Shown one piece after another: positions 2,584 through 55,571 of a stretch of DNA of 64,000 nt. Source of the DNA: Streptomyces roseochromogenus subsp. oscitans DS 12.976 (GTDB lineage: Bacteria; Actinomycetota; Actinomycetes; Streptomycetales; Streptomycetaceae); NCBI RefSeq assembly GCF_000497445.1, contig NZ_CM002285.1, forward strand, positions 2,587,304 to 2,651,303, written 5' to 3'. A program made the position numbers and the translations under genes. The notes under the pieces are model-generated. The model saw nothing but the letters and a program-made list of their open reading frames with translations, searched no databases and was not told the DNA's origin. Numbering within the stretch: position 1 is the first letter of the stretch; the number at the start of each line of letters is the position of its first letter.

Positions 2584-2634
2584 GCCGTGTCGCCGTCGCC
2601 TGCCCTCTGACCGCCACCGCCTGCCGGCCCGGTG

Positions 2635-3921: not shown

Positions 3922-3960
3922 GGAAGACAGCGGCGAGCAAATGGCGGATTTCTGGGACTG

Positions 3961-38192: not shown

Positions 38193-39299
38193 TTACCGCT
38201 CGGTGGCCGCGAGCTGACCACAGGCTCCGTCGATCTCCTGCCCACGGGTGTCCCGGATGGTGACGGGCACGCCGTGCGCGGCGATGGCTTCGACGAAGGC
38301 CTTCTCGTCCTCGGGCCGCGAGGCCGTCCACTTCGAGCCCGGCGTCGGGTTCAGCGGAATGAGATTGACGTGCACGGGCTTGCCCTTGAGCAGCCGCCCG
38401 AGCCGGTCACCGCGCCACGCCTGGTCATTGATGTCGCGGATCAGCGCGTACTCGATGGACAGCCGGCGCCCGCTCTTCTCGACGTACTCGAACCCGGCGT
38501 CCAGCACCTCGCGCACCTTCCACCGCGTGTTCACGGGGACGAGGGTGTCGCGCAGCTCGTCGTCGGGGGCGTGCAGGGAGATCGCGAGCCGGCACTTGAA
38601 GCCCTCGTCGGCGAACCGGTGGATGGCCGGCACCAGCCCGACGGTCGAGACAGTGATCCCGCGCTGCGAGAGCCCGAGCCCGTCGGGGGCGGGGTCGGTG
38701 AGTGCCCGGACGGCTCCCACGACTCGGTTGTAGTTGGCGAGCGGCTCGCCCATGCCCATGAAGACGATGTTGGACAGCCGCGCGTGCCCGCCGGGCACCT
38801 CGCCGTCCCGCAGCGCGCGCATCCCGTCGACGATCTGGTGCACGATCTCAGCGGTGGACAGATTCCGGTCCAGCCCGGCCTGCCCGGTGGCGCAGAAGGG
38901 ACAGTTCATCCCGCATCCGGCCTGCGAGCTGATGCACATGGTGACCCGGTCCGGATACCGCATCAGCACGGACTCGACGAGCGTCCCGTCGAACAGCCGC
39001 CACAGCGTCTTGCGCGTGGTCCCCTGGTCGGTGGACAGATGCCGTACGACGGTCATCAGCTCCGGGAACAGCGCCTCCTGCAGCTTCCCGCGCGACCCGG
39101 CGGGGATGTCGGTCCACTGCTCCGGGTCGTGCGCGTACCGCGCGAAGTAGTGCTGCGAGAGCTGCTTGGCACGGAACGGCTTCTCCCCGATCTCGGCCAC
39201 CGCGTCCTTGCGCTCGGCGGGCGAGAGATCGGCAAGGTGCCGCGGCGGCTTCTTGGCTCCGCGCGGTGCGACGAAAGTAAGTTCTCCGGGCTTAGGCAT
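38193..39299 (-). CDS. rlmN: 23S rRNA (adenine-2503-C2)-methyltransferase
   Basis: A 368-residue radical SAM enzyme. [13 protein letters not shown] supplies the [4Fe-4S] cysteines 129, 133 and 136, and the C-terminal DGACGQLA contains the second catalytic Cys (about 360). It adds a methyl group to A2503 of 23S rRNA (and A37 of some tRNAs). ATG 39299 begins MPKPGEL; the first seven codons lie within the 52-bp repeat that marks the left end of an integrated element, so everything upstream of this gene, including its promoter, is now element DNA. Confidence 0.96.
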
Positions 39300-39331
39300 G
39301 GCTGTACCAGTGTCGCAGATCCAATCGGGTG
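39280..39331. repeat. Left attachment-site repeat at the rlmN 5' end
   Basis: This 52-bp sequence recurs in the same orientation at 50702-50753 with 49 identities: 23 identical bases, a 7-base stretch with three differences, then 22 identical bases. It covers the first seven codons of rlmN and ~32 bases upstream. Such a pair is the expected product of site-specific integration into the rlmN start. Confidence 0.85.
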
Positions 39332-39551
39332 ACCTGCGGCTGCGGCTCGCTACGACTGTCGTTAGTAGGGATCAACGGTCGCCACTGAGCGGCGTCGGAC
39401 GGCCCAGAGACGGCCCAAGGGTGATCACTCGTGGTCTGCCTGCCACTCATCGAGGCCCACTCTGACCTGGTGGGTTTTCGGCGTGTCAGACCTCACCACT
39501 GACGAAGGCCCCGAGGGCCGGTAGATCCGTCCCCTGCGGCATGGATGTGAT
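39332..39551. other. Left-end non-coding region of the element
   Basis: No supported gene. The stretch contains the 19-bp candidate arm site at 39398-39416. Together with the weak gene at 39552-39809 it separates the attachment site from the first clear element gene. Confidence 0.5.
39398..39416 (+). repeat. Candidate integrase arm-type site, left
   Basis: GACGGCCCAGAGACGGCCC, itself a doubled GACGGCCC, is found exactly again at 50613-50631. In a circularised element the two copies would flank the core at about 66 and 70 bases, as arm-type integrase sites do. Confidence 0.5.
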
Positions 39552-39809
39552 CTACGCGAGCGCTATGGCGTCCGGAACGCCATCGGTACGTCTGAACACC
39601 CCGAAGTGCTGGCGACCAATGACCTCCTCCGTGATCCGGGCCTCCAAAGGCACGGCTGTGATGGTTGCCGCCCAACTCTTCCGCACCGCGTGCGCGGCTG
39701 GCACCTCCAGGAACGGCGGCCGCCCCAGGCTCACTGGGAAGTTGCCCCAATCTTGCTCCGTGGGCTCAAGGCATCCGTAAGATCTACTGGAGATGGTCTT
39801 GTTCAGCAA
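39552..39809 (-). CDS. Possible small hypothetical protein near the element left end
   Basis: Read leftward, about 85 residues with natural-looking composition: GCLEPTEQDWGNFPVSLGRP, EVPAAHAVRKSWAATITA and EEVIGRQHFGVFRRTDGVPD. A TTG at 39809 is the nearest plausible start; no good ribosome site is seen. Could be a gene remnant. No function recognised. Confidence 0.35.
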   Translation of the reverse strand: MLNKTISSRSYGCLEPTEQDWGNFPVSLGRPPFLEVPAAHAVRKSWAATITAVPLEARITEEVIGRQHFGVFRRTDGVPDAIALA

Positions 39810-39846
39810 TGGGCTGTGAGTGAAGTAGGGGCGACAGGGCGGAAAG

Positions 39847-40698
39847 ATGGTGCAGTCAGGCATCACCAACACGGGCTCAATGACCACGGACGTGCTAATC
39901 CAGCATCGTCGTGAAATTGCAGATCTCAAGCAACGTATCAAGAACCGCCGCCTTCAAGTGATCGGTCTGTACGGAACTCCACCTCTAGCCATTGCCGTGC
40001 TCTTGGCGTGGGCTGGTTTGAAGATGCTTCTATGGCTGCATTCGAGTATGCCAAGTGCACTCAACGGAATCCTTGGCGGTATGGCATTTCTACTAGGCGT
40101 GGCTTTTGTCGCACAGGCGCTAGTTGAGTTCCATAGCGACTTCAGCGACGTATGGAGAGATCGACAGACCTCGGTCCGAGAGCTCAAGCTCGAACTTTCC
40201 TTGGCTGAAGAGCGTCATATTCTCGAAGCCAGGCGGCGTACCCCTCCACCAATGGATCGGCAGTCTTCCTATAAGGAAAGACTGCCGGGGGAGATATCTC
40301 GATTGCGTGAAGAGTCGCGGCATTATCGCCGTGTGCATCTCCTGATGCAATGGCTCCTCTTCGTTAGCTCATCGGCTGTTTCAGCTGTTACTGCTTGGTA
40401 TGACCCGCCCCAGCCCGCAAAGGGTGCTCTCATCGGCCTTGGTTCCATCGTGACTGTGATTACTGCTGCAGCTGGTTACTTCAAACCCCGAGAGCGTGCT
40501 TTCAACCTTCAGCAGACGGCCGACAGTATCGAGCAGCACGCTAACGCTCTTGAGCTGGGAATTGCTCCGTACAACATGACTGAGGATGAAAGGAACCTGG
40601 AACTATTCGCAACCACCGTAGAAGGATTGCGCGCCGAGCAGCGAATGCGAGAGCAGCAACTTGATCAGCCACAGCAGGGGCAGCAGCAAGTCATCTAG
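39847..40698 (+). CDS. Four-TM DUF4231/SLATT-like membrane protein
   Basis: A 283-residue protein with two pairs of membrane helices: LAIAVLLAWAGLKMLLWL and GILGGMAFLLGVAFVAQAL, then LLMQWLLFVSSSAVSAVTAW and GALIGLGSIVTVITAAAGYF. Charged coiled segments lie between and after them. The tail FKPRERAFNLQQTADSIEQHANALELG has the register of DUF4231 and SLATT domains, which as I recall are predicted pore-forming effectors in nucleotide-triggered defence systems. Codons are less GC-biased than in core genes, pointing to transfer. ATG 39847 follows GGGCGGAAAG; ATG 39880 is an alternative. Confidence 0.65.
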   Translation: MVQSGITNTGSMTTDVLIQHRREIADLKQRIKNRRLQVIGLYGTPPLAIAVLLAWAGLKMLLWLHSSMPSALNGILGGMAFLLGVAFVAQALVEFHSDFSDVWRDRQTSVRELKLELSLAEERHILEARRRTPPPMDRQSSYKERLPGEISRLREESRHYRRVHLLMQWLLFVSSSAVSAVTAWYDPPQPAKGALIGLGSIVTVITAAAGYFKPRERAFNLQQTADSIEQHANALELGIAPYNMTEDERNLELFATTVEGLRAEQRMREQQLDQPQQGQQQVI

Positions 40699-40859
40699 CG
40701 AAGAGGAGCCGTCCCGGATCGGCGAAAATTTCCGAGTGCCAGTTTTGAGAGGGAGGGGAAAATTCACTAGGCTCTGGCAAGCCATTGAACAACTCCTGGA
40801 GGCACCGTTCTCACGCAATGCGTGAGACAGTGACACGGTGCACTGCCTCGCCGTCCTCG

Positions 40860-41675
40860 TCATCGACGAAAGAGGCGACTTCCCTGTTCAGGACCCAAGT
40901 CGATACTGATTGCGGGTCCAGCAAGGCATTGAAAGTAATTCCCTCCAATGTGGCCTCCGCCCATTGAAATTCCATACGGCGTAAGTGATAGACCCGTCCC
41001 CGCGACGGTTTCATAGACTTCCACAGCCGTCAGCGGGTACTCCGGCATGTCCTTACAGTTGACCATATGAGGGTATCGGCTGGCAAATTTTTCACTATTT
41101 TCCAATGTGAAGAACTCGACCCGGAACCGGTCACCATTTGAATGGTTAACTTCGACTATTCGTCCGTTTGGTGGGCAGATTACTTCGTCGGCGCCAGGCG
41201 TAACAGTCCAGACGTTTTGCTCAATCTCGGCCCGAGGACGGCGTGCCAGGGTTGGCATCTTCACATTCAATAGGAGGTAACCGTCCTCGTCCCTTTCGAA
41301 CCAAATAGACTTGACTCCTCCGATCTCAAGTGCCGTGTAGCACTCGTAGCTGAAATTGTCGGCAGCGACCATCAAGATCTTGTGTCTCATCCAGTCAAAG
41401 CGACCCCGTACAACAGAAGCCCGAGACTTTCCTTCGCGTTTTAGAGTGCGAACCTGATCATCGGTAAATGCTCCGTTATCGGCCTTGTCTGCATGCTCTC
41501 GACAGAGGGCTACCATTCCTTCTGGGCGATGATGCTTCTCGGCCCGCCACGGCGGGTCAAAGTGGTGCCATGTCAAATACGGAGAACCGCAACCTTCTAC
41601 TGGGCAGCAGAATCCGACTTCTTGACGGAGTCGCCTTAGCACATCCCTAGGGGGCTTACGGGAAATCTCAGACAT
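40860..41675 (-). CDS. HNH-type endonuclease-like protein
   Basis: A 271-residue protein from ATG 41675 with GGAGGCGG upstream. Residues ~20-65 read CCPVEGCGSPYLTWHHFDP, then HRPEGMVALCREHAD: the Cys-Cys, HH and Cys-His spacing of an HNH nuclease with a structural zinc. The long C-terminal region (FERDEDGYLLLNVKMPTLA ... GISMGGGHIGGNYF) is beta-rich and could recognise a partner or ligand. It is convergent with the DUF4231-like gene. DNA cleavage for defence or mobility is inferred from the motif and context. Confidence 0.72.
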   Translation of the reverse strand: MSEISRKPPRDVLRRLRQEVGFCCPVEGCGSPYLTWHHFDPPWRAEKHHRPEGMVALCREHADKADNGAFTDDQVRTLKREGKSRASVVRGRFDWMRHKILMVAADNFSYECYTALEIGGVKSIWFERDEDGYLLLNVKMPTLARRPRAEIEQNVWTVTPGADEVICPPNGRIVEVNHSNGDRFRVEFFTLENSEKFASRYPHMVNCKDMPEYPLTAVEVYETVAGTGLSLTPYGISMGGGHIGGNYFQCLAGPAISIDLGPEQGSRLFRR

Positions 41676-42148
41676 ATCCGCCTCCGGTTGGCGTTCAGCT
41701 GTCCATAAGACCTATTACACTACCTGCCAATTGCGCCGCTGAGCTACCAGTCGGCGGAGTCTCGATCAGCCAGGCGAGCTGCCCGTGTGCCGCCCATCAG
41801 TGAGGGCGGCACACGGTGCCGGCCAGGCTTTGAGGTCAGCCGTCATCCTTGTCAGGTCGATCACGGGGAGTCGGCGACATCGGTCAACCCGCTGAAGTCC
41901 TCGGCTGATCGTCCGGTCAGGTTCGGCGTCGGTCGCCGGTGTCCGCGCTTGTTGATGTCAGCCGTTGATGTCAGGCATCCGGGCCCCTCTTGACAGATCC
42001 GCCCACCACACTCAGAGGGCGGCACGCGAGCTGATGCCCGTTTTGCTATTGCGGTTGGGTGCAGATCCCTTCAGGGGACTGCACCTTTGCGGATAACTGG
42101 GGCATCGCAGGTCGCCCTCCCCTCGGCGCTGTGGCCAGGCGTGGCACG
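41676..42148. other. Intergenic region, element
   Basis: No supported gene in these 473 bases. It contains the promoter side of the HNH gene (TTGGCA and TATGGA with 17-base spacing are visible on the minus strand near 41690-41730) and a strong hairpin at 41784-41815. Confidence 0.45.
41784..41815 (-). terminator. 12-bp perfect stem-loop
   Basis: CGTGTGCCGCCC (41784-41795) pairs exactly with GGGCGGCACACG (41804-41815) around an eight-base loop. It lies downstream of the minus-strand gene ending at 42149. Confidence 0.65.
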
Positions 42149-42898
42149 TTACTCCTCGTCGATGGTCTGCAGCTCGACGGGCCGGTCGGCCACGTCCATG
42201 GTCTGTGGCGTGGCCAGCAGCTTGTTCAGTCCAAGGGTCAACTGCACGACGAACATGCTCAGTAGGACGGCCAGGGCTATTCGGACCAGGCTGTAGATGG
42301 CGTCGACGTTCGCCGCGGTCTCGTAGTCGCCGGGCGTTTGAAGGTTGGAGTTGGTCACGAATGAGAGGTAGAGCGCGGCGAAAACCGACAGGAGCCACGC
42401 GCCGTAGGTCCAGACGACTCCGCGGCCGCCGGGCAGGGCCCTGGTCCATCCCAGCCCGATGTCGGTGCGTGACATGGCGTTCGCGTGGCCGGCGCGCGCC
42501 CACCGCTGGTAGGCGTACAGAACTGCCATGAAGGCTGCGAAGCGCAACATGTTCGTGGTGTTGATCGTTTGGAGTGCGCTGTGCAAAGCCTGCCGGTCGT
42601 AGCCGTCGTTAGCGGCGGCCAAGGCCCATTGGTGGGCCCGCGTGCGCTCGGCGGAGAACCGCACGACCTCGCTGACGATGGCCACCGCGGCTGCAGCCAG
42701 TACCGTGAGTAGTGGGCCCGTCATCGAAACCCTCCCCGGACTCACCTTGGACTGGATCAGCAACGCCGCCTTGGCGTTGCGCCCGCGACGCTGAGGCGGC
42801 TTCGACAAGTCGCTCTCCTGCTGACAGACCGGACACAGCCCTTTGATCCCGTCAAAAGCAACTTCACGCTGCCGACACTTCCGACACGTCAGTAGCAT
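42149..42898 (-). CDS. Zinc-ribbon membrane protein (DUF4328-like)
   Basis: A 249-residue protein from ATG 42898, behind AGGAGG. The N-terminus TCRKCRQREVAF ... GLCPVCQQ is a four-Cys zinc ribbon in the cytoplasm. About five membrane helices follow (LLTVLAAAAVAIVSEV, MLRFAAFMAVLYAYQRW, VVWTYGAWLLSVFAALYL, ALAVLLSMFVVQLTLG). The WARAGHANAM and WTYGAWLLSV segments recall DUF4328 proteins of Streptomyces. Role unknown. Confidence 0.65.
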   Translation of the reverse strand: MLLTCRKCRQREVAFDGIKGLCPVCQQESDLSKPPQRRGRNAKAALLIQSKVSPGRVSMTGPLLTVLAAAAVAIVSEVVRFSAERTRAHQWALAAANDGYDRQALHSALQTINTTNMLRFAAFMAVLYAYQRWARAGHANAMSRTDIGLGWTRALPGGRGVVWTYGAWLLSVFAALYLSFVTNSNLQTPGDYETAANVDAIYSLVRIALAVLLSMFVVQLTLGLNKLLATPQTMDVADRPVELQTIDEE

Positions 42899-43334
42899 CC
42901 CGCGCCCCCTCCTTGCTTGATCGCGGTTGAATTGAGCGCCGCATGCTATTGGGTCCGCCAGAGACGCGTCGATACCTCCAACGCAGTGAAGATCGAGGAT
43001 CTGCGCCCATTTCGGGGACACCCCAACACGACCGAGCCCTCCGGTAAGTGCGGATGCCGCGTTCCTGCACGCTCCGGAGACGACAGATGTGACAATACGT
43101 CACGTACCGCCCTCTCATACCTCATCACCTATCCCACGGTGTCGATTGCGCAGGTGAGGCGTGGGGTGGACCGGTGCGGCGCGGGTGACCACGCGGCCGG
43201 TGGAGTCTTAATGACCCAGTCAAGCGCCGTGGGCCGGGTGCTTCAGCACCAGTCTGGAGATCGCGTATGCGGATGGTGTCTGGCCTGGGGCGTTGCTGAC
43301 CTGCGCCGCAACTGGCCGTGATCTTGGTAGGAGC
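42899..43334. other. Intergenic region, element
   Basis: No gene with convincing codon bias is visible in these 436 bases, which separate the zinc-ribbon gene start from the end of the orphan gene at 43335. I see no repeat or RNA structure worth naming. Confidence 0.4.
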
Positions 43335-43769
43335 TCAGAGCTGCGGCATGCCGGCAGCGATCTCGAACCCGGAGGACTCGTCCCAAGGAACCGCCTCCCA
43401 CAGGCTCACCACGGCGGCCCAAATGCGGTGCAGCAGCGCCCAGTCGGGGTTGTCCCCGCTGAGGGTGACGGTGGCTAGCAGGTCGCATCCCCAGATGCCC
43501 TGCTCGTCATTAGGCGATGCAGTGATCACAGACTCTGCGATCTCTGCTACGCCCACGTGTACTTCCAGGGTCAGCAAGTCCGCGACTGGCCTGTCGCTGT
43601 CGCTGGAACCAGTACCGAGCCTGAACGCGGCCACCGAATCCCCGAACGGCCCCAACCACTCGCCCACCAGGCGGTCGCCGCTCTCCAGCAGGTAGTCCAG
43701 CAGGCGATCAAGCGCCTCGTCGCCTCTGTCTTCTCCAGAGCGGCAGAAGAAGCTGAGTTGGTAGGCCAC
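43335..43769 (-). CDS. Hypothetical protein cut off from its promoter by an IS256-type element
   Basis: From GTG 43769 the protein is 144 residues: AYQLSFFCRSGEDRGDEALD, then LLDYLLESGDRLVGEWLGPF, a Ser/Asp-rich loop and LHRIWAAVVSLWEAVPWDE near the end. It is acidic and soluble, like many small immunity-type proteins, but no family is recognised. The insertion sequence begins at 43777, only seven bases before this start, so the native promoter and ribosome site are displaced. The true start could have been further upstream and lost. Confidence 0.5.
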   Translation of the reverse strand: MAYQLSFFCRSGEDRGDEALDRLLDYLLESGDRLVGEWLGPFGDSVAAFRLGTGSSDSDRPVADLLTLEVHVGVAEIAESVITASPNDEQGIWGCDLLATVTLSGDNPDWALLHRIWAAVVSLWEAVPWDESSGFEIAAGMPQL

Positions 43770-44414
43770 GATTCCCGGGACTGTAAATCGTTCGGTGTAA
43801 CTCCCGATCATGGAAGATGCATCGATGACCAGTGAGAACGTGGCCGAGCACGAGGTCGACGAGTCGGCAGCGGCTGTGAACGCCGTGGACGACAAGCTGA
43901 TCGACGAGCTGGTGAGCCGGGCCCAGGCCCAGGCCGAGGGTCTGCAGCTGACCGGCGAGGGCGGGCTGCTGCAGCAGCTGACCAAGAGGCTCTTGGAGTC
44001 CGCCCTCGAAGGCGAGATCACCGATCACCTCGGCTATGACAAGCACGACCCTGCGGGCAAAGACGGTGGCAACTCCCGTAACGGCAAACGCTCCAAGACC
44101 GTGCTGACCGACGTGGGACCGGTAGAGATAGCCGTGCCCCGCGACCGGGACGGCTCCTTCGAGCCGAAGATCGTCAAGAAGCGGCAGAAGCGCCTGACCG
44201 GCGTCGACGAGATGGTGATCTCACTGGCCGCGAAGGGCCTGACCACCGGAGAGGTCCAGGCCCACCTGGCGGAGGTCTACGGCGCCGAGGTCTCCCGGCA
44301 GACCATCTCCACCATCACCGACAAGGTCCTCGAGGGCATGGCCGAATGGCAAAGCCGCCCCCTCGACGCCGTCTACCCGGTGGTCTTCATCGACGCCATC
44401 CACGTGAAGATCCG

Positions 44415-46113
44415 GGTTCTGTCGACGATCTTGTGATCCGGACGGCTGAGCACGTCGCTTCGGCTGTTCGCGATCATGCATCGCGTGCCCTCGTGATGTG
44501 CTCCTGGAGCTGTTTCCGTCCCTGTCCACGTTGCTGATAGAGGAGGTTGAGCGGCGACCGGACCAGGTAGTGCTGAGAACGCGGGTGCGGGCGACGACTG
44601 GATCGTGTCGGTGCGGTCAGAGCTCGGCCCGGGTGCACGGTCGGTACGTACGCAGGCTGCGTGATGTCGCTGTGGGCGGGCTCGGTGTCGTGATCGAGTT
44701 ATGCGTGCGCCGTTTCCGCTGCGAGAACCCTGCCTGCACGGCAGTGACGTTCGCCGAGCAGGTCTCGGGACTGACCACCCCGCACAGTCGGCATACTCCC
44801 CTGCTGCGCGAGGTGTTGACGCAGATCGGGCTGGCCCTGGCCGGCCGGGCAGGAGCCCGGCTGGCAGCCGCGGTCGGCCTCACCATAGGCAAGGACACGC
44901 TGTTGCGGCTGGTCAGGTCCTTGCCTGAGCCGGAGATCGGCAAGGTGGATATCCTCGGCGTCGACGACTTCGCCTTCCGCAAGGGCCGCCACTACGGCAC
45001 GGTATTGATCGACATGGCCACCCACCGGCCGCTGCACCTCTACGACGGCCGCGAAGGTGACGACCTGGCCGCATGGCTCCGCGATCACCCCGAGGTGACG
45101 GTCATTTGCCGGGACCGTTCCAGCGGATACGGGGAGGGCGCTCGGGTCGGGGCGCCGCAGGCCCAACAGGTCGCGGATCGCTATCACCTGTGGGCCAACC
45201 TCGGCCAGGCGGTCGAGAAGACGGTCAACGCCCATAGCTCCCGCCTGGCCGAAGTGCCTCCCGGCTCGGCATCCAGCCCCGATCACGTGGAGGTGGAGCC
45301 CGAGGTGGTCCAGCCGCCGAAAGAGCTGAAGATCGTGATCCGGCTGCGTGCGCAGCACGCAGCCGTCCACGACCTGTGGCATCAGGGGATGTCGAAGGCG
45401 GCGATCGGCCGGAAGGTCGGGCTGCACCAGGCAACCGTCCGCAAACTGGTCAACGCCCGTTCCGCCGACGATGTCGTGGCCAAGAACCTCCAACGAGCGC
45501 ATGTCGTGGACCCATACGTCGGCTACTTGCACCGGCGCTGGAACGAGGGCGTCAGGAACGCCGCCCAGCTCTACCGCGAGATCAGACAACTCGGCTATCC
45601 AGGCGGAGAGCTGGCCGTCCAGCGGCATCTGCGGCGCTACCGGACCGGGCGCGGACACGCACCCGATCCGGGACCGAAGCCTCCATCGGTCCGCGAAGTC
45701 ACCTCCTGGAACATGACCCACCCCGAGCACCTACGGGACGAGCACGCCGACAAGCTGCACCGACTGCGTGAGCGCGATCCCGAACTCGACCGGCTCACTC
45801 TTCACATCAGGAAGTTCGCCGCGATGATGACCGGCCGCCACGGCGACCGCCTCGAAGACTGGATCACCGACGTCGAACGGGACAGTCTGGCTCCGCTTGC
45901 GGGCTTCGCCCGCAACCTCCGCCGCGACTTTGACGCCGTCCGCAACGGGCTCTCTCTGCCGCACAGTTCCGGCGCCGTCGAGGGCAACATCAACCGACTC
46001 AAGATGCTGAAGCGCCAGATGTTCGGCAGGGCCAGTCTCGATCTGCTTCGCAAACGCGTCCTGCTCGCACGGTGAGCCTCGACCCCTCGGATCACAAGAT
46101 CGTCGACAGAACC
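44415..46113 (+). mobile_element. ISL3-family insertion sequence, complete
   Basis: A 1699-bp element with perfect 26-bp terminal inverted repeats (44415-44440, beginning GGTTCTGTCGACGATCTTGT, and 46088-46113). It is flanked by an 8-bp target duplication AAGATCCG at 44407-44414 and 46114-46121. All features of a recent, intact insertion are present, and it carries one transposase gene. Confidence 0.96.
44498..46075 (+). CDS. ISL3 family transposase
   Basis: A 525-residue transposase from GTG 44498. The N-terminal zinc finger reads CRCGQSSARVHGRYVRRLRD and CENPACTAVTFAEQ. The DDE domain contains VDILGVDDFAFRKGRHYGTVL with the first catalytic Asp, VICRDRSSGYGEGAR with the second, and SSGAVEGNINRLKMLKRQMFG with the Glu. 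An insertion with an HTH (KAAIGRKVGLHQATVRKLVNA) is typical of longer actinobacterial members. The reading frame is intact, so the enzyme is likely functional. Confidence 0.95.
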   Translation: MLLELFPSLSTLLIEEVERRPDQVVLRTRVRATTGSCRCGQSSARVHGRYVRRLRDVAVGGLGVVIELCVRRFRCENPACTAVTFAEQVSGLTTPHSRHTPLLREVLTQIGLALAGRAGARLAAAVGLTIGKDTLLRLVRSLPEPEIGKVDILGVDDFAFRKGRHYGTVLIDMATHRPLHLYDGREGDDLAAWLRDHPEVTVICRDRSSGYGEGARVGAPQAQQVADRYHLWANLGQAVEKTVNAHSSRLAEVPPGSASSPDHVEVEPEVVQPPKELKIVIRLRAQHAAVHDLWHQGMSKAAIGRKVGLHQATVRKLVNARSADDVVAKNLQRAHVVDPYVGYLHRRWNEGVRNAAQLYREIRQLGYPGGELAVQRHLRRYRTGRGHAPDPGPKPPSVREVTSWNMTHPEHLRDEHADKLHRLRERDPELDRLTLHIRKFAAMMTGRHGDRLEDWITDVERDSLAPLAGFARNLRRDFDAVRNGLSLPHSSGAVEGNINRLKMLKRQMFGRASLDLLRKRVLLAR

Positions 46114-46876
46114 AAGATCCGCGACGGCGCGGTTGCCAATCGGCCCATCTACGTGGCCCTGGCCGTCACGGCGGAGGGCCGACGCGAGACCCTGGGCCTG
46201 TGGGCCGGCGACGGCGGCGAGGGCGCCAAGCACTGGCTGCACATCCTCAACGAAATCAAGAACCGCGGCGTCAACGACGTGCTGATGCTGGTCTGCGACG
46301 GGCTCAAGGGCCTGCCCGAGGCGGTGGAGACGGTCTGGCCCCGCACCATCGTGCAGACCTGCGTGGTCCACCTGTTGCGGAACTCCTTCCGCTATGCCGC
46401 CCGTCAGGACTGGGACAAGATCGCCAAGCTCCTCAAGCCCGTCTACACCGCTCAGACCGAGGAGGCTGCCCTGGACCGGTTCGCGGGGTTCGCCGATGCC
46501 TGGGGCGGGAAGTATCCGGCGATCGTGAAACTGTGGGAGAACGCGTGGGAGGAGTTCACTCCGTTCCTGCGGTTCGATACCGAGATCCGCCGGATCGTCT
46601 GCACCACCAACGCGATTGAGTCCGTCAACGCGCGGATCCGGCGAGCAGTCAAGGCCCGCGGGCACTTCCCGAACGAGCAGGCCGCCCTGAAGTGCGTCTA
46701 CATGGCGATCACGTCGCTCGATCCCACCGGCAAGGGCCAGGCCCGCTGGACCATGCGCTGGAAGACCGCACTGAACGCCTTCGACATCACCTTCGACGGC
46801 CGACTCTCCGCGGCCCGCCAGTAACCATCAACTACCCAGTTACACCGCTCGTTTGACAGACCCGTGGCACGCCTGC

Positions 46877-46897
46877 GGGCCCCATAAAATGGGGCCC
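46877..46897 (-). terminator. 9-bp hairpin after the 60-residue membrane gene
   Basis: GGGCCCCAT and ATGGGGCCC flank an AAA loop. It lies 31 bases past the stop of the minus-strand gene at 46929 and just outside the IS256-type right end. Confidence 0.6.
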
Positions 46898-46928
46898 ACA
46901 GGGATAACTCCGCGCAAGTCGTGATGCG

Positions 46929-47111
46929 CTATTTGTATGCGGCGAGGGCGGCGAAGTAGACACCAAGGCTGCTGGCTGCGGCGCCCGCGCCCGTGAGGAG
47001 TGCGTTCGGCATGCTAGCGCCGGATCGGTAAGCAAGTAGGCCCGCTGTGATCGCGATATTGAGAGCCACAGAGAGGGCAAGCAGTAGGGACAGGAACTGG
47101 ACTTGGTTCAT
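46929..47111 (-). CDS. 60-residue two-helix membrane protein
   Basis: Starting at ATG 47111 with GGGAG nine bases upstream, the protein is MNQVQFLSLLLALSVALNI followed by AITAGLLAYR and a second hydrophobic segment ALLTGAGAAASSLGVYFAALAAYK. Two membrane helices fill nearly the whole chain, a layout shared by small toxins, holin-like proteins and small membrane regulators. It is divergent from the large P-loop protein gene, with a 214-bp spacer. Function unknown. Confidence 0.6.
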   Translation of the reverse strand: MNQVQFLSLLLALSVALNIAITAGLLAYRSGASMPNALLTGAGAAASSLGVYFAALAAYK

Positions 47112-47325
47112 CACGTGGACTCCCGTGATCAAGGACGGCCTAGGGCAGGCCGTGCGCGACGAGTCCGAAGCTGCCTGTCCAAGTAGCCGTCCAAGAGGAG
47201 TCCCTCTCGGATTGGACACGTACCACCAAGCTGCGCAGATAGGTCGCTACGGATCCCGGCTCGACTGACGTTCTTGTCCACCCAATGTCCACGGGGCATG
47301 CTGGACACTCCCTCCTGAGCTGCGA

Positions 47326-50300
47326 GTGGCAAAGCGTGTGGTGATGACAGAACCGACAGCTGCGGGCACATCTGAATTCGCTGGGCAAATCGCCAAGTTG
47401 GCCGCGTTTCGAAACAACCAACTGCAACGTCAACCGTCGGACCGTGCGTTGGCTGAAGCCGTCGGGGTCAGCCCGACCACGATCGGGGACTGGTTGCGCG
47501 CCGTCCGGTTTCCCCAGCGGGTCGAATTACTGCTGGACTTGGTACGGGCAGTGCAGTTACAGGCTGAGCACGCAGGGCTAGCCGACGCCCCAACGGCTAC
47601 GGAGCTCCTGAGTGCGCAGCGGTGGCGTCTCCTGTACCAAGCCGAGGCTCAACTGCGCGCGCACGGGACAAGCGCAGCGGTGGCAGCTCAGCAGGGCCGT
47701 GCGGTGCTGGAGCGTATGCGACCGGGCCAACCGTTGGGCGCGATATCCGACCCCTTTCATCTTGAAGTACACCACGCCATCGACTCTTCGGTTGCGGGTC
47801 TGCCAATGCTTCCGCCATACGTTCCGCGCGAGCACGACTACCGGCTGGCCAAGGTAGTGGCGCAGGCTGCCGCTGGTGAGAGCCGGATCGCGGTGCTGGT
47901 GGGCGGGTCCTCGACCGGCAAGACGCGAGCCTGCTGGGAAACACTGAAGACGCTACGCGCTCAAGATGAGCCCTGGCGGCTGTGGCACCCCATCGATCCC
48001 TCCCGACCCGACGCTGCCCTAGCTGAACTACCCAACATCGCTCCACATACAGTGGTCTGGCTTAACGAGGCCCAGTTCTACTTGGCGCCTGACAGGCTCG
48101 GAGAGCAAGTTGCCGCGGGGCTGCGGAATCTCCTACGCGAGCCGGGGCGAGGGCCGATCCTCGTGCTGGCTACCTTGTGGCCGGAGCACTGGAGCACGCT
48201 GACTACGCGTACCAAGCCGGACCTGCATGCCCACGCACGAGAGTTGTTGGACGGGCACAAGATCAAAGTGCCGGATGGATTCACCGGCGACGACCTTGCC
48301 GAGCTGGCAGACAACGCCAATCTCGATCCCCGACTCGGCGAGGCGGCCGAGAACGCTCGCAACGGTCAGATCACCCAGTACCTGGCCGGGGTACCGGTCC
48401 TATTGGACCGGTACCACGAAGCCCCTCCTGCAACCAAGGCACTCGTCCAGGCTGCCATGGACGCCCGTCGTCTCGGCGCCGGCCCTCGGCTGCCATTGGC
48501 ACTGCTGGCAGAGGCCGCGCCTGGTTACCTCACCGACCTAGAGTGGGATCAGACCAGCGACGACTGGCTGCAACAGGCCTTGGAGTACACCGCCACCGCA
48601 TGCAACGGCATCCCCGGAATCCTTATCCCCGTCAAAGCCGGTACACCTCCCAACCAACGCAACCGTCGCATGGGCACCCTCACTGCCGGGCGCCAGCCCG
48701 AATCCGGGCACGCAACGCTGTACCGGCTGGCTGACTACCTCGACCAGTACGGCCGCCGCCACCGCGTCGACGACATCCCTCCCATCGCCTTCTGGACCGC
48801 AGCCGCCTCCCACGCCCACCCCGCTGACCTCACAGCACTCGGCAACGCAGCCTGGCAGCGCGGCCTCTATCGCGACGCCGCCCAGCTCCACAAACACGCC
48901 ATCACCCACGGCGCCCAAGACGCCTCTCCCACGCTCGTCGCTCATCTCCACACCCTGCATCCCGATGACCGCCGCCCGGCCCAATGGGTCACAGTCAACA
49001 TCGCTTTTGACGACCCGGGTCATGTGATCAAGCTACTCGGCAGATTTCACGGGGGTCCTGCGGACGAACAGCTAACCGCCTTGGCCGAGCAAGCCGCCAC
49101 CCGCGTCGCCCTCGACGATGGGCAACAAGTGGCCAGGCTGCTGAGCAAGTTGCGGGAAGTGGAGGCAGACGAACAGATCACCGCACTGCTGGCCCGCGAC
49201 CCCGCCACCCACGTCGCCATCGACGATGCGGACCAAGTGGCCACGCTGCTGAGCAAGTTGCGGGAAGTGGAGGCAGACGAACAGATCGCTGCACTGCTGG
49301 CCCGCGACCCCGCCACCCACATCGCTCTCAATGACCTGGACTCGGTGGCTTGGCTGCTGAAGGGACTACGGGAGGCAGAGGCAGATGAACAGGTTACGGC
49401 CCTGGCCGAGCGAGCCGCTGCATACGCGGCTCTAGACGACCCGGGCGGGGTGGCCGAGCTGCTGTGGCAACTGCGGCAGGCTGGAGCAGACGAACAGATC
49501 GCTGCACTGCTGGCCCGCGACCCCGTGGCCCACGTCAACATCCCTCTCGACAACCCATTCGCTGTGCCCTCGTTGCTGGAGTCCCTTCGGCAGGTTGGAG
49601 CGGACAAGCAGGTGACAGCGCTGCTCACCCGTTCCCCAGCCCCCCATGTCGACGTAGCTCTCGACGACCCCGTTGCTGTGGCCAGCTTGCTGAACGAACT
49701 GAACGAATCTGAGGCAGAGGAACTCATCAGTGCGCTGCTCGCCCGCGACCCTGCCACCCACGTCGCCATCGACGATGCGCAACAAGTGGCCACACTGCTG
49801 TGGGAACTGCGGGAGGCTGGAGCAGACGAACAGATCGCTGCACTCCTGGCCCGCGACCCCGCCACCCATGTCACCATGGATGATGCGAACGCCGTTGGCC
49901 AGCTGCTGTCGATATTCCAGTTGACGGCAGCAGACGAGCAAGTCACCAGACTGCTGGTCCGCGACCCCGCCACCCACGTCGCGCTTAACGGGGGTTTGGC
50001 CGTACTGCTGCAGGTACTGCGGGAAGTCGGAGCGGAGGAACAGGTTGCAAAGCTGCTGGCCCGCGACCTCGCCACCCACGCCGATATTGAAATAGGCAAC
50101 CCGCCCACTGTGCCAAGGCTGTTGGAAGAACTGCACAACGCACAGGCTGACGAACAGGTCGCCACGTTGGCCGAGCGAGCTGTCATCCACCTCCCTCTCG
50201 ACAACGCCGACGGCGTCGCCCAACTCCTGGAAATGCTGGTGAAGGTCGGCGCAGACGATCAGATCGCTGCACTCCTGGCGCGCGACCCCGCCACCCACGT

Positions 50301-50514
50301 CGTCCTCAACGGCACGAACACCGTCAATTGGCTACTGAACGCTCTACAGGCAGTCGGCGCGGAGGAACAGATCAGCACGCTCATCGAACGTCTGCCTGCC
50401 GCAGGTCACATCGATCGATTCGTCGAACTCAGTGATCACGAGAAGCGATACAGGTTCGGGCGGGAGCCCGACGGACAGCCTGCCGCCCCCTGGACGTGGG
50501 AGGACCTGGAGTGA
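47326..50514 (+). CDS. HTH / P-loop NTPase with ~13 tandem 36-residue helical repeats (STAND-like)
   Basis: A 1062-residue protein. Residues ~35-65 (DRALAEAVGVSPTTIGDWLRAVRFPQ) are a helix-turn-helix. A P-loop follows at ~192-202 (VGGSSTGKTRA), with a Walker B-like VVWLNEAQFYL in which Asp is replaced by Asn. From ~563 to 1030, thirteen repeats of about 36 residues occur with consensus VAxLLxxLREAGADEQIAALLARDPATHVAID, quoted here only as VATLL-LREAGADEQ-ALLARDPATH. The sensor-like repeat array behind an NTPase is the plan of STAND immune receptors. Some repeats are almost identical in DNA, so the array is expanding. Start choice between GTG 47326, GTG 47341 and ATG 47344 is unsettled. Confidence 0.75.
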   Translation: MAKRVVMTEPTAAGTSEFAGQIAKLAAFRNNQLQRQPSDRALAEAVGVSPTTIGDWLRAVRFPQRVELLLDLVRAVQLQAEHAGLADAPTATELLSAQRWRLLYQAEAQLRAHGTSAAVAAQQGRAVLERMRPGQPLGAISDPFHLEVHHAIDSSVAGLPMLPPYVPREHDYRLAKVVAQAAAGESRIAVLVGGSSTGKTRACWETLKTLRAQDEPWRLWHPIDPSRPDAALAELPNIAPHTVVWLNEAQFYLAPDRLGEQVAAGLRNLLREPGRGPILVLATLWPEHWSTLTTRTKPDLHAHARELLDGHKIKVPDGFTGDDLAELADNANLDPRLGEAAENARNGQITQYLAGVPVLLDRYHEAPPATKALVQAAMDARRLGAGPRLPLALLAEAAPGYLTDLEWDQTSDDWLQQALEYTATACNGIPGILIPVKAGTPPNQRNRRMGTLTAGRQPESGHATLYRLADYLDQYGRRHRVDDIPPIAFWTAAASHAHPADLTALGNAAWQRGLYRDAAQLHKHAITHGAQDASPTLVAHLHTLHPDDRRPAQWVTVNIAFDDPGHVIKLLGRFHGGPADEQLTALAEQAATRVALDDGQQVARLLSKLREVEADEQITALLARDPATHVAIDDADQVATLLSKLREVEADEQIAALLARDPATHIALNDLDSVAWLLKGLREAEADEQVTALAERAAAYAALDDPGGVAELLWQLRQAGADEQIAALLARDPVAHVNIPLDNPFAVPSLLESLRQVGADKQVTALLTRSPAPHVDVALDDPVAVASLLNELNESEAEELISALLARDPATHVAIDDAQQVATLLWELREAGADEQIAALLARDPATHVTMDDANAVGQLLSIFQLTAADEQVTRLLVRDPATHVALNGGLAVLLQVLREVGAEEQVAKLLARDLATHADIEIGNPPTVPRLLEELHNAQADEQVATLAERAVIHLPLDNADGVAQLLEMLVKVGADDQIAALLARDPATHVVLNGTNTVNWLLNALQAVGAEEQISTLIERLPAAGHIDRFVELSDHEKRYRFGREPDGQPAAPWTWEDLE
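49012..50415 (+). repeat. Tandem ~108-bp coding repeats
   Basis: About thirteen units in phase with the 36-residue protein repeats. Adjacent units near 49126-49320 share long nearly identical stretches (for example CTGCTGAGCAAGTTGCGGGA at about 49138 and 49246). Others have diverged, and three carry two-residue insertions. Confidence 0.85.
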
Positions 50515-50612
50515 TCGACGCGGTGTCGGTCGACCGGGGCCCAAATACATGAACGAGGGATCAGTAAGTCGGCTCGCTCGGACAGACGCCCTGTCGAGAC
50601 CCCAGTGAATTT

Positions 50613-50631
50613 GACGGCCCAGAGACGGCCC
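50613..50631 (+). repeat. Candidate integrase arm-type site, right
   Basis: Exact copy of the 19-bp doubled GACGGCCC sequence at 39398-39416, same orientation, 70 bases inside the right attachment repeat. Confidence 0.5.
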
Positions 50632-50701
50632 GACAGCGTGACCCAGTGCCGTTCCCGCGTCAAACACGCAGGTAGGCGCTCGGTCCCGCCAGATCATTGC
50701 C

Positions 50702-50753
50702 AGTTCTCCGGGCTTAGGCATGGCCTTACCGGTGTCGCAGATCCAATCGGGTG
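50702..50753. repeat. Right attachment-site repeat
   Basis: Matches 39280-39331 at 49 of 52 positions. It contains a vestigial copy of the first codons of rlmN (MPKPGEL read on the minus strand) that leads nowhere. Confidence 0.85.
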
Positions 50754-50941
50754 CCCCTCGCGGTCGGCTGCGCCGGAAGCCCACGCGGGCCCGCTGCCGC
50801 CTTCGCATCGCCGCTGGGCCCCTGAGCCGGCCGCTTCGCCCGTTCACGGGCCGGGCGGCCTGTGAAGTTCTGCTGACGAACGGTCGGGTTTCCTGGTCGG
50901 GCCTTGTCCCGCCTCCTGGCTCTGACGTAACCAGATGAGCC

Positions 50942-51613
50942 ATGAACCTTTTCGGCCGCAACTCCTTCCACCGGCGCGCGCAGCCGTCCGCCGCTCCCGT
51001 GGCGACCGCCGCCCCGGCGACCAGTGCCCGCGCCGGCGCCACCGCCGTCCTGCCCGATCCCGAGCTGGCGGGCCTCACCGGCGACTGGCTGATCGATCCC
51101 GCGCACAGCAGGATCGGGTTCTCCGTGCGACACGCGATGGTGACGACCGTGCGCGGCGCCTTCACGCAGTACGAGAGCCGCCTCCACTTCGACGGCCGCG
51201 ACCCGACCCGCTCCCGGGCCGACCTGGTGCTGTACACCGCCAGCGTCGACACCGGCGTCGAGCAGCGCGACGCCCACCTGGTCGGCCGGCAGTTCCTGGA
51301 CGCCGCCGCCCATCCGCGGATGACGTTCACGAGCACGACCGTGCAGCTCGCGAGCCAGGACGTCTACCGGATGACCGGCGATCTCACCATCAAGGACACC
51401 ACCCGCCCGGTGGACCTGGAACTCACCTACATCGGTCATGTGACCGACGCGTTCGGTGACGAGCGGGTCGGCTTCGACGGCACCACCACCATCAACCGCT
51501 CCGACTGGGGACTTACCTATGACGCCCGGCTGGCTCAGGGCGGGTCCATGGTGAGCGAGACGGTCCGCCTCCAGTTCGACATCGCCGCGATCCGCATCAC
51601 TGCCACGGTCTGA
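50942..51613 (+). CDS. YceI family protein
   Basis: A 223-residue protein whose C-terminal ~175 residues form the YceI lipocalin-like barrel: GDWLIDPAHSRIGFSVRHAMV, RGAFTQYESRLHFDGRD and TIKDTTRPVDLELTYIG. YceI proteins bind polyisoprenoid or other amphiphilic ligands. The first ~45 residues are an Ala/Pro-rich extension without a clear signal peptide, so it is probably cytoplasmic. It lies just outside the element and is convergent with cdsA. Confidence 0.92.
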   Translation: MNLFGRNSFHRRAQPSAAPVATAAPATSARAGATAVLPDPELAGLTGDWLIDPAHSRIGFSVRHAMVTTVRGAFTQYESRLHFDGRDPTRSRADLVLYTASVDTGVEQRDAHLVGRQFLDAAAHPRMTFTSTTVQLASQDVYRMTGDLTIKDTTRPVDLELTYIGHVTDAFGDERVGFDGTTTINRSDWGLTYDARLAQGGSMVSETVRLQFDIAAIRITATV

Positions 51614-51630
51614 CATCCGTACGCACCACA

Positions 51631-51666
51631 ACGGGCCCCCACCCTCCAGCGAGGACGAGGGCCCGT
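51631..51666. terminator. Stem-loop between yceI-like gene and cdsA
   Basis: ACGGGCCC (51631-51638) pairs with GGGCCCGT (51659-51666). It sits in the 72-bp space between two convergent genes and can serve both. Confidence 0.65.
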
Positions 51667-51685
51667 AAGCCGTACGGCAGCAGAC

Positions 51686-52831
51686 TCAGCCCGAGCCGAC
51701 GAAAACCACCAGAAGAAGCCACACCACGGGAGCCGTCGGCAGCAGTGAATCCAGCCGGTCCATGATGCCGCCGTGGCCCGGGAGCAAGGTGCCCATGTCC
51801 TTGATGCCCAGGTCGCGCTTGATCATGGACTCGCCGAGGTCGCCCAGCGTGGCGCTGCCCGCGACCGCGAGACCCAGCAGCAGGCCCTGCCACCAGGTGC
51901 CGTGGCTGATCAGGAACTGCATGCACAGCGCGCCCCCGGCCATCGCGAACAGCACCGCGCCCAGCAGGCCCTCGCGGGTCTTGCCGGGGCTGATCCGCGG
52001 GGCCAGTTTGTGCTTGCCGAAGCGCCAGCCGACCGCGTACGCGCCCGTGTCGCTGACGACCGTGAGGAGCAGGAAGGTCAGGACGCGCCAGGGACCGTCC
52101 TGCGCGGTCAGCATCATCGCGACGAAGGTGGCCAGGAACGGCACGTAGAACGCCGCGAAGACACCCGCCGTGACGTCCCTGAGATAGCCCTCCGGCGACT
52201 CGGTCATCCGCCAGACCAGCGCGGCCAGGGCGGTGAGGGCCATGGCGACCCAGGCACCCTCGGCGCCACGGACGTACCCGGCGACCACCATCCCCGCACC
52301 GCCGACCGCGAGCGGCACCAGCGGCGCCTTGATCTGCTTGCGCTCCCGCAGCCTGCTGGTCAGCTCCCACAGGCCGACGACGACGGCGACCGCGATCACC
52401 CCGACGAACACGGCCTTCCTGACGAACAGCGACGCGATGATCACCACACCGAGCCCGACCCCGACCCCTATGGCCGCGCTCAGGTCACGGCCCGCGCTCT
52501 TCTTCTGCGGCGCTGGCGCCGGCTGGTGGGCGTCGGGCATGGGCTCCGGATTCTGGTTCTCGGCCTGGGCGGTCCGGGCCTGCGGGGGCCGGGGGCGGAA
52601 CTCGTCCTGGAACAAGGGGCCGCTCAGCCGGGCGGCTCCCCGGTCGCCGTCCTGGTCTCCGCCATACGCGGGTTCGTCGGGCACGATGGGCATGGGGCGA
52701 GTGTGCTGCGCCTGAGGCGCATCGTACGCGGGACCCGCCGGGGCGGCGCCCTGGACAGGCCCGCCCTCGGTGGGCCCCCAGTAGCCGGCCGGCCCCGCCG
52801 GTGGCGGCGCCCCCCAGGAAGAGTCGCTCAT
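51686..52831 (-). CDS. cdsA: Phosphatidate cytidylyltransferase
   Basis: A 381-residue membrane enzyme making CDP-diacylglycerol from phosphatidate and CTP. About eight helices follow a ~125-residue Pro-rich cytoplasmic extension. The family signature near the end reads KRDLGIKDMGTLLPGHGGIMDRLDSLL in two parts: KRDLGIKDMG and LPGHGGIMDRLDS. The start at ATG 52831 overlaps the frr stop in TGATG, so the two are translationally coupled. Confidence 0.95.
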   Translation of the reverse strand: MSDSSWGAPPPAGPAGYWGPTEGGPVQGAAPAGPAYDAPQAQHTRPMPIVPDEPAYGGDQDGDRGAARLSGPLFQDEFRPRPPQARTAQAENQNPEPMPDAHQPAPAPQKKSAGRDLSAAIGVGVGLGVVIIASLFVRKAVFVGVIAVAVVVGLWELTSRLRERKQIKAPLVPLAVGGAGMVVAGYVRGAEGAWVAMALTALAALVWRMTESPEGYLRDVTAGVFAAFYVPFLATFVAMMLTAQDGPWRVLTFLLLTVVSDTGAYAVGWRFGKHKLAPRISPGKTREGLLGAVLFAMAGGALCMQFLISHGTWWQGLLLGLAVAGSATLGDLGESMIKRDLGIKDMGTLLPGHGGIMDRLDSLLPTAPVVWLLLVVFVGSG

Positions 52832-53388
52832 CAGACTTCGAGCAGTTCCGCTTCCTTGTGCTTCAGGAGCTCGTCCACCTGCGCGACGTACTTCGCGGTG
52901 GTGTCGTCCAGCTCCTTCTCCGCACGGCGGCCCTCGTCCTCGCCGACCTCGCCGTCCTTGACGAGCTTGTCGATGGCGTCCTTGGCCTTGCGGCGCACGG
53001 AGCGGATGGAGACCCGGGAGTCCTCGGCCTTGTGCTTGGCGACCTTGATGTACTCGCGGCGGCGCTCCTCCGTCAGCTCGGGGAACGTCACCCGGATGAT
53101 GTTGCCGTCGTTGCTGGGGTTGACGCCCAGGTCGGAGTCGCGGATCGCCTGCTCGATGTTGCGCAGCGCGCTCTTGTCGAAGGGCGTCACGACCGCCATG
53201 CGCGGCTCCGGCACGGAGAACGAGGCCAGCTGGTTGATCGGCGTCAGGGCACCGTAGTAGTCGGCCACGATCTTGTTGAACATCGCCGGGTGCGCACGGC
53301 CGGTGCGGATCGCGGCGAAGTCCTCCTTGGCGACCACGACGGCCTTCTCCATCTTCTCCTCGGCCTCGAGGAGGGTCTCTTCGATCAC
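52831..53388 (-). CDS. frr: Ribosome recycling factor
   Basis: A 185-residue protein, the family's standard length, from GTG 53388 with CAGGAG upstream. [20 protein letters not shown] and [20 protein letters not shown] are conserved RRF blocks. It splits post-termination ribosomes together with EF-G. It sits between pyrH and cdsA as in other streptomycetes. Confidence 0.97.
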
Positions 53389-53572
53389 CACTTGCTCCTG
53401 CGTGTCTTGAGTAAGGCCCGGCTGCGGTTCCTCTATCGGGCGGCGGCCGGCTGCGTCGCGTCTTCTTCCTGCACGGTTCCCGACCGGCAGGACATTGTCC
53501 ATCCCCCGGCCAGGGCGCGTCCCGTCCGTCCCCCGGACAGGTGGCGTACCCCGGGCGACGGGGGTGTGCCGG

Positions 53573-54331
53573 TCAGTCCCGGCTGCCCTGGTCGCCCACC
53601 AGCGTGCCGATCTTCTCACCCTTGACGGCGCGGGCGATATTGCCCTCCGCGAGAAGCTCGAAGACGAGGATCGGGAGCTTGTTGTCGCGGCACAGTGTGA
53701 TGGCGGTGGCGTCGGCGACCTTCAGGTCGCGGGTGATGACCTCGCCGTAGCCGAGGGCGTCGAACTTGACGGCGTCCGGGTTGGTCTTGGGGTCGGAGTC
53801 GTACACCCCGTCCACGCCGTTCTTGCCCATGAGCAGCGCCTCGGCGTCGATCTCCAGGGCGCGCTGGGCGGCGGTGGTGTCGGTGGAGAAGTACGGCATG
53901 CCCATACCGGCGCCGAAGATGACCACACGGCCCTTCTCCAGGTGGCGCACGGCGCGCAGCGGGATGTACGGCTCGGCGACCTGCCCCATGGTGATGGCGG
54001 TCTGCACCCGGGACTGGATGCCCTCCTTCTCCAGGAAGTCCTGGAGGGCGAGACAGTTCATCACGGTGCCGAGCATGCCCATGTAGTCGGAGCGGGCGCG
54101 GTCCATGCCGCGCTGCTGCAGCTCGGCGCCGCGGAAGAAGTTGCCGCCGCCGATGACGACCGCGATCTGCGCGCCGTCCCGGACGACGGCCGCGATCTCG
54201 CGGGCGATCTTGTGCACCACGTCCGGGTCCACGCCCAGGCCCCCGCCGCCGGAGAAGGCCTCTCCGGACAGCTTCAGCAGAAACCGGCCGCGTACTTTGC
54301 CGTCGTCGCTCTTCTGGGCCTTGGTGGTCAT
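53573..54331 (-). CDS. pyrH: UMP kinase
   Basis: A 252-residue amino-acid-kinase-fold enzyme phosphorylating UMP to [46 protein letters not shown] and [20 protein letters not shown] are diagnostic. ATG 54331 fits the usual bacterial length. A terminator hairpin separates it from tsf. Confidence 0.97.
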
Positions 54332-54370
54332 GGAAGATCCCGCCTCTTTCACGTGTTGCACATACGAAGA

Positions 54371-54420
54371 AGGCCATTGCCGATGGGGTCGCTTTTCGCT
54401 CCCATGCGCGGCAATGGCCT
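54371..54420 (-). terminator. Terminator hairpin between tsf and pyrH
   Basis: AGGCCATTGCCG and CGGCAATGGCCT form a perfect 12-bp stem (54371-54382 with 54409-54420). On the minus strand it is followed by TCTTCG. It suggests that pyrH-frr-cdsA also has its own promoter in 54332-54370. Confidence 0.75.
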
Positions 54421-54558
54421 CCTCGTCAGATCTGCTGCCGTCCGCCGCACGCCGGGGTGTGGCGGTGTACGCGGACGACTGCTTACGACCCTATCGGGAT
54501 TTCACCGGGGATTGTTCCGGGATCTCGGTGTGGGTCGCGAGTCGATCGTGGTCCGGAC

Positions 54559-55395: not shown

Positions 55396-55502
55396 GAGTC
55401 TGTGAGTCTTTCTCGAAGTCTGGAAGATCTTCAGGTCAGCACGGTCTTGCATGCCACATGTAGCCGCGGAACACATCCGTCGTGCCGACCTACGGGTGAA
55501 CA

Positions 55503-55557
55503 GCGGGGGCGGACTTAACCGCGCCGGTGGCGCGATGGGATGCCGTACCGCCCCCGC
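55503..55557 (-). terminator. Stem-loop in the rpsB-tsf spacer
   Basis: GCGGGGGCGG (55503-55512) pairs with CCGCCCCCGC (55548-55557), with a smaller inner stem GCGCC/GGCGC. It lies just after the rpsB stop and may limit readthrough into tsf. Confidence 0.6.
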
Positions 55558-55571
55558 CGTCAACGCGTGCG

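Follow-up and report, generated by a model that had tools for sequence, protein, structure and literature searches.

The window analysed here is a stretch of 64,000 nucleotides from Streptomyces roseochromogenus subsp. oscitans DS 12.976 (contig NZ_CM002285.1, positions 2,587,304 to 2,651,303 of the forward strand; all coordinates below are those of the window unless stated), in which two direct repeats bracket an island at the start of the gene rlmN. This target gene (38193-39299, minus strand) has kept an intact coding sequence of 368 amino acids (aa), with the Pfam domains Radical_SAM and RlmN_N and 98% identity in the nearest relatives. The two copies of the repeat, each 52 bp long, lie on the rlmN side (attL, 39280-39331) and on the side of a cdsA-like gene (attR, 50702-50753); 49 of their 52 positions are identical, their spacing is 11,422 bp, and the left copy is composed of the first 20 nt of rlmN and the 32 bp upstream of it. 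That such repeats bracket 11.4 kb and span the first codons of rlmN had been proposed in an original prediction made from the DNA letters, and both coordinates and identity were reproduced. A 22-bp core of the rlmN start, allowing up to three mismatches, occurs only twice in the whole 9.78-Mb genome, namely in the two repeat copies, and the G+C content between 39 and 51 kb (0.55-0.68) is lower than that of most adjoining kilobases. The island is very probably a decayed actinomycete integrative and conjugative element (AICE) of a family that targets rlmN, of the type known as decayed AICE (DAICE) or cis-mobilizable element (CIME).

Attachment sites, relatives and missing genes

Each attachment (att) site consists of the core and one 19-bp arm site inside the element, the arm site itself being made of two direct repeats. 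In the window, the left arm (GACGGCCCAGAGACGGCCC, 39398-39416, plus strand) starts 118 bp after the core start, and the right arm (50613-50631, plus strand) 89 bp before it, both matching the consensus at 19 of 19 positions. Eighteen two-ended rlmN elements, that of the window among them, have this architecture: the right arm precedes the core by 89-92 bp in every one, the left arm is offset by 117-118 bp in 16 and by 139-140 bp in the remaining two, and the arms match the consensus at 15-19 of 19 positions, the left arm of a 0.7-kb relic (L039) reaching just 15. As a control, 3600 segments were drawn at random from these loci, of which 38 gave at least 16 matches, part of these being likely the arms themselves. 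A core at the rlmN start with two arms at fixed offsets is thus what the island of the window displays, and the complete rlmN AICEs share its core, arms and site, while differing from it by encoding tra, rep and an integrase.

Such complete AICEs (integrase, tra and rep) are found at rlmN in L093 (S. monashensis MUSC 1) and L097, as well as in L150, L154, L155 and L161, and include those of S. albogriseolus and S. spinosisporus. Other relatives carry an integrase together with both ends (L095, L096, L057) or an integrase at the right end (L089, L090), and the gene is cut in L091 and frameshifted or truncated in L092 and L094. Arranged as a decay series, 11 two-ended elements comprise five with an unbroken integrase gene (L057, L093, L095, L096, L097), four with a broken one (L036, L043, L092, L094) and two with none (the window and L039).

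The regions upstream of rlmN in 38 other genomes (L033-L052, L055-L072) offer a view of the site in both states. Ten loci are empty and compact (L056, L058, L059, L061, L062, L063, L065, L066, L067, L069), with roughly 100-175 bp between the end of the cdsA-like gene and rlmN. Four loci have a core and an arm at each end (L036, L039, L043, L057), one has an AICE interrupted by a contig end (L044), and seven have a left arm alone near rlmN (L033, L034, L035, L038, L041, L045, L055); the remaining 16 show no arms at the site but additional genes or a larger gap. At the empty sites the conserved 40-bp core is present once, L067 being the only one in which it was not detected, since this core is the start of rlmN itself. 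Occupied sites, empty sites and integrase-bearing relatives, all of which the original prediction had proposed to look for, are therefore found in other Streptomyces; its refuting case, empty sites lacking the 52-bp sequence, applies to the outer 12 bp only, which vary between genomes, while the core is present. Among 392 Streptomyces sampled from a larger group, 12 have the exact right end and 37 the exact left end, two counts that are not directly comparable as the patterns differ in stringency.

The gap between rlmN and the cdsA-like gene varies even without AICE ends, several loci having for example open reading frames (ORFs) of cytochrome P450 and SRPBCC type. In the window, the conserved gene upstream of rlmN (51686-52831, minus strand; a homologue is likewise placed in 17 of 20 loci of a first set) is presumably cdsA, a name given from its place in the operon. 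This gene, and not yceI as first proposed, is the neighbour that is conserved beyond attR: yceI (50942-51613, plus strand; Pfam YceI), which lies outside the element, stands between attR and cdsA in the window genome and in S. monashensis, where an 88% homologue holds the equivalent position.

The island has no integrase that could be recognized. Six rlmN-site integrases used as tblastn queries gave against the element a best match of E=0.048 (24% over 144 aa) inside the stretch of an ISL3 transposase, and no match at E<=0.1 against the whole 64-kb window. The recombinase-type Pfam matches in ten scanned window proteins are limited to mutator/IS256 and ISL3 transposases, and tblastn with a single tra and a single rep query, both from AICEs, gave no match in 39200-56000. 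The claim that only transposases of insertion sequences (ISs) are present thus held, as did the prediction of a site-specific element at the rlmN start without an integrase of its own, through its att structure, its integrase-bearing relatives and the empty sites; an integrase between 39.3 and 50.7 kb, which was to refute it, was sought with the six queries and not found. The set of integrase, rep and FtsK-type tra that makes a functional AICE is absent from the island, nor does it qualify as an integrative and mobilizable element, having no integrase of its own (a relaxase was not specifically searched for). What it presents is the profile of a decayed AICE, in which attL and attR are retained, integrase, tra and rep are not found, and integrase-bearing relatives use the same att sites. 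A larger element with its integrase outside the repeats was rejected, given only two cores in the genome and no integrase match in the window.

Elsewhere in the genome, the best match to an rlmN-type integrase reaches 50% over 102 aa (query residues 313-414), none being found at 1e-60; it lies outside the window at genome position 3958193-3958501 and resembles a C-terminal fragment of an AICE integrase. An integrase acting in trans from another locus was set aside for lack of a close relative, though a distant one of equal specificity is possible.

The rlmN-site relatives encode an integrase of the tyrosine recombinase type (Phage_integrase, 5e-16), a distant relation of solved Int structures such as 6emy; in intact elements its gene stops some 20 bp short of the right arm. 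When named genomes were scanned, an rlmN-type core followed the integrase at 50-900 bp in 30 of the 80 best integrase loci, three more having the core further away and four more a nearby cdsA-like gene with no recognized core. The integration site follows the integrase phylogeny: a tree of 84 integrases requires four changes between rlmN and other sites, compared with 28 in shuffles. According to PMC3218068, most AICEs with tyrosine integrases reside in tRNA genes, the pSLS subfamily being an exception; pSLS was not among the plasmid matches listed (best 15 of 60).

Crossover point and the region upstream of rlmN

Comparison of the left and right cores of the 18 two-ended elements places the crossover at about -3 to -14 relative to the rlmN start, hence at 39302-39313 in attL. 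It must lie upstream of the start codon, because the left cores of L039, L176 and L177 retain the deviating codons of their own rlmN; the differences at -15/-16 in L057 and L154 already agree with a left copy of element DNA and a right copy of chromosomal DNA. The 18 attL/attR pairs thereby agree with the prediction that integration keeps the coding sequence of rlmN.

The stretch from -20 to -8 (TCTGCGACACTGG) is 88-100% conserved per base among 67 distinct rlmN upstream sequences, which are mutually related and drawn from the fetched loci. Within this set, CTGCGACACT is matched with at most one mismatch in 63 sequences, and a Shine-Dalgarno-like motif occurs in two. As the motif is found at empty and occupied sites alike, the element re-supplies TCTGCGACACTGG upstream of rlmN. 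The gene is not inactivated because the crossover falls where it does, the core restoring both the start and the conserved upstream motif. The idea that the element replaces the promoter region of rlmN therefore stands in one respect, all DNA upstream of about -14 being that of the element, and not in the other, since the -20 to -8 motif is retained.

By the general rules for such motifs, the -20 to -8 stretch may represent the extended -10 of a leaderless promoter, a reading that would account for both a conserved integrase target at rlmN and a tolerated insertion. A scan for sigma-70 consensus promoters upstream of rlmN returned no promoter-like site, which counts against this reading. That the motif is a coding part of a longer rlmN is unlikely, as L024 has an in-frame TGA there. 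In the window, rlmN is now 12.4 kb away from the cdsA-like gene, and together with the element DNA upstream this makes some change in rlmN expression possible; the original prediction had supposed that the element may control the expression of this 23S rRNA methyltransferase, which affects antibiotic susceptibility. The attR core (50702-50753) carries a second copy of the promoter-like motif and of the rlmN start codon, directed into the right end of the element, where in intact AICEs it would run antisense to the integrase.

Remnants, insertion sequences and cargo

Two short segments recall an AICE. The left ~428-433 bp of the element share 82% DNA identity with AICE L166, and also 82% with L033; they include the relic of an S1-like gene (39474-39707, minus strand), truncated at its 5' end (tblastn, 70% over residues 67-145), which adjoins the left ends of AICEs, intact in L033 and present in L166 and L217. 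The other is a non-coding segment (41749-41995, plus strand) with a perfect 13-bp hairpin at 41783-41816, which DNA comparison identified also in L093, L094, L187, L222 and L166, and which is single-copy in the genome, apart from the pairing of the hairpin with its own opposite strand. This segment also occurs in AICEs with other target sites; a role as transfer origin of the entire AICE family is unsupported, few AICEs having it. At the other end, the alignment to AICE right ends begins at 50612-50614, on the first bases of the arm, in eight of the nine loci with an alignment longer than 120 bp (L036, L039, L043, L089, L093, L094, L096, L166), and 13 bp earlier in the ninth (L091), which implies that the integrase gene is gone.

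An IS256/mutator-type IS (43776-46864, plus strand; Pfam Transposase_mut) has its transposase gene split into 43810-44436 and 46072-46824 by a nested ISL3-family IS (44415-46113, plus strand; Pfam DDE_Tnp_ISL3). Inspection of the ends revealed a perfect 8-bp target duplication for the latter and none for the former, and an IS-linked deletion would be a plausible cause of the loss.

The cargo begins with a SLATT-domain (DUF4231) membrane protein of 283 aa (39847-40698, plus strand; NCBIfam SLATT_1, 71.4 bits for a cut-off of 41; Pfam DUF4231), the SLATT class being described in PMC7159879 as predicted nucleotide-responsive pore effectors. It is followed by a 271-aa HNH-endonuclease-like protein of uncertain start codon (40860-41675, minus strand), whose relatives are named HNH endonuclease. 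This protein has no family match in Pfam, NCBIfam or PADLOC, but shows invariant H48, H49, C58 and H61, and its predicted model (mean predicted local distance difference test score, pLDDT, of 92.6) places a strand-strand-helix (beta-beta-alpha) at the motif. The large protein set contains 412 relatives, and the gene is present in one of 266 Streptomyces searched, the window genome itself; in Streptomyces sp. C10-9-1, relatives of both the SLATT and HNH-like proteins were found, in two separate searches. A 290-aa ORF (42149-43021, minus strand) has hydrophobic stretches by eye and no family in Pfam, NCBIfam or PADLOC.

On the right, a 96-aa small ORF without family match (46929-47219, minus strand) is the divergent partner of a 1062-aa ORF (47326-50514, plus strand) with a helix-turn-helix (HTH)-like N-terminus, a P-loop NTPase and 36-aa repeats, STAND-like by eye, its Pfam matches to AAA_16 and HTH_31 being weak and below cut-off. 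The C-terminal half of this HTH-NTPase gene is made of about ten 108-nt repeats (49003-50370), 60-87% alike. The pair forms a divergent cassette (46929-50514) with DNA matches elsewhere in the chromosomes of G168 (L131) and G007 (L130). The protein belongs to a large actinobacterial family, with relatives in 117 of 392 Streptomyces (window genome included); among the 120 relatives listed, five have a TIR domain and two a trypsin-type domain, a variation that appears to be domain swapping as in conflict proteins. The gene was rejected as a marker of the element family, none of the matches listed except that of the window lying beside rlmN by coordinates.

The SLATT and HNH-like proteins and the HTH-NTPase-repeat protein may serve phage defence. 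PADLOC gave no match on five window proteins; in other rlmN elements, five of ten scanned proteins matched, in four of nine elements, a figure that is not a rate, as the ten were picked by eye near the left end among 115 ORFs listed. The matches are RelA/SpoT PDC-S33 (L150, L093), ApeA-HEPN PDC-S58 (L155), and a CBASS cyclase with a 4TM effector (L177). L044 has, by Pfam, an 8xMP membrane protein and a nucleoside-deoxyribosyltransferase-like gene. L036 is an island of 4.4 kb (probably S. ferrugineus; L036 positions 81-4547) in which a reverse transcriptase, DRT UG23, stands with its SLATT partner, RTasSLATT; its integrase is broken, and both ends are kept.

Origin of the island and its bearing on Streptomyces

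The ingredients are already published, namely AICEs inserted in rlmN, relics of AICEs without an integrase, and cis-mobilizable elements. In PMC9513070, AICE03 of Streptomyces sp. RLB3-6 is inserted in rlmN, and by this description resembles the island of the window in target gene, AICE type and terminal direct repeats, but differs in having its own integrase and excisionase and repeats of 11 nt. The same paper describes DAICEs with direct repeats and a lost or partial integrase, and raises a possible mobilization in cis. The island shares with them the direct repeats, the cargo and the absence of a working integrase at an AICE site, whereas the DAICE example given, at a glycosyltransferase gene, keeps truncated integrases and no integrase remnant was found in the window. 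CIMEs are defined as cis-mobilizable elements in PMC5704250, which also defines accretion, deals mainly with streptococci, and cites the accretion of a Streptomyces pathogenicity island (Zhang and Loria 2017). The likeness lies in the loss of integration and transfer genes, the retention of attL and attR, and accretion at the same site in L166 (Streptomyces sp. CB01373, 5010-14200). There, an element that has rep and an integrase incomplete at its N-terminus precedes another att core, which has a left arm of its own. For the island of the window, mobilization is putative. In the open literature, searched without supplements and subscription papers, PMC9513070 was the one paper found to name rlmN as an AICE site, and none was found that treats rlmN elements as carriers of defence genes or describes rlmN islands without an integrase.

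Could the repeats arise without any mobile element? A chromosomal rearrangement duplicating the 5' end of rlmN would look alike, the core being the start region of the gene, but it is extremely improbable: an arm stands at a fixed distance on either side, 18 elements repeat this architecture around AICE integrases, and the right-end homology begins at the arm. In practice the shared ends refute it. Tyrosine integrases and defence cargo occur in phages and their satellites too, and yet integration of such an element at rlmN has very little probability: the ends match AICEs, the complete relatives carry tra and rep, and none of 1117 matching phage records reaches 60% identity to the family integrase, the ten best-ranked rows giving 27-31%. 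The decay of an AICE is not, for its part, free of difficulties. The window holds no tra or rep remnant, so that descent from a full AICE is argued from the ends and two short segments, one of which (41749-41995) is clear in just five of 171 loci searched. In addition, the empty sites all come from other genomes, none conspecific; the rlmN-site integrases are not one clade, at least three changes being forced, with L057 on a long branch; and the arm motif also stands beside related AICEs using other targets, marking the integrase family rather than rlmN alone. The arms would be read by a conserved domain of the integrase, while the core would set the target.

Alternatively, the island would be a maintained satellite, having only cis sites and kept through trans mobilization by AICE integrases, with defence genes as payload. 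Both arms at 19 of 19 and cores at 49 of 52 without an integrase, as against the eroded left arm of L039, speak for this, as do the two ends kept around defence genes in the integrase-broken L036 and the tandem accretion in L166. A recent loss of the integrase accounts equally well for the intact sites, however, no second copy of the integrase-less island was found in another genome, the HNH-like gene is confined to this genome among the 266 Streptomyces searched, and no close rlmN-type integrase was found in it; the proposal is doubtful. Its wider form, in which rlmN is a defence hotspot served by AICEs and satellites with cis sites only are moved by the integrase and Tra of entering AICEs, is a speculative extension that we regard as unlikely, and in it the hairpin segment would perhaps act as a transfer or single-strand origin.

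Under the preferred reading of a decayed AICE, a conjugative element with a tyrosine integrase would have entered the 5' end of rlmN by recombination between its attP and the attB there, giving attL and attR. Its backbone (int, rep, tra) would later have been lost and replaced by cargo, the once full-length S1-like end gene truncated and one non-coding segment kept, and the IS256-type element without target duplication likely marks a rearrangement. The order of events in this loss is one that we infer. Excision of the island by the integrase of an incoming rlmN AICE may still be possible, either in trans or, after tandem insertion, in cis.

The case is noteworthy for combining perfect att sites, without an integrase, with defence-type cargo at rlmN. 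The island shows how foreign genes of defence type can be kept in a Streptomyces chromosome at a conserved coding gene that stays unharmed. Detection methods that require an integrase would miss such islands, for which the defined att architecture, a core with paired arm repeats, provides a handle; and if it is true that they move with the help of AICEs, they would be AICE satellites.

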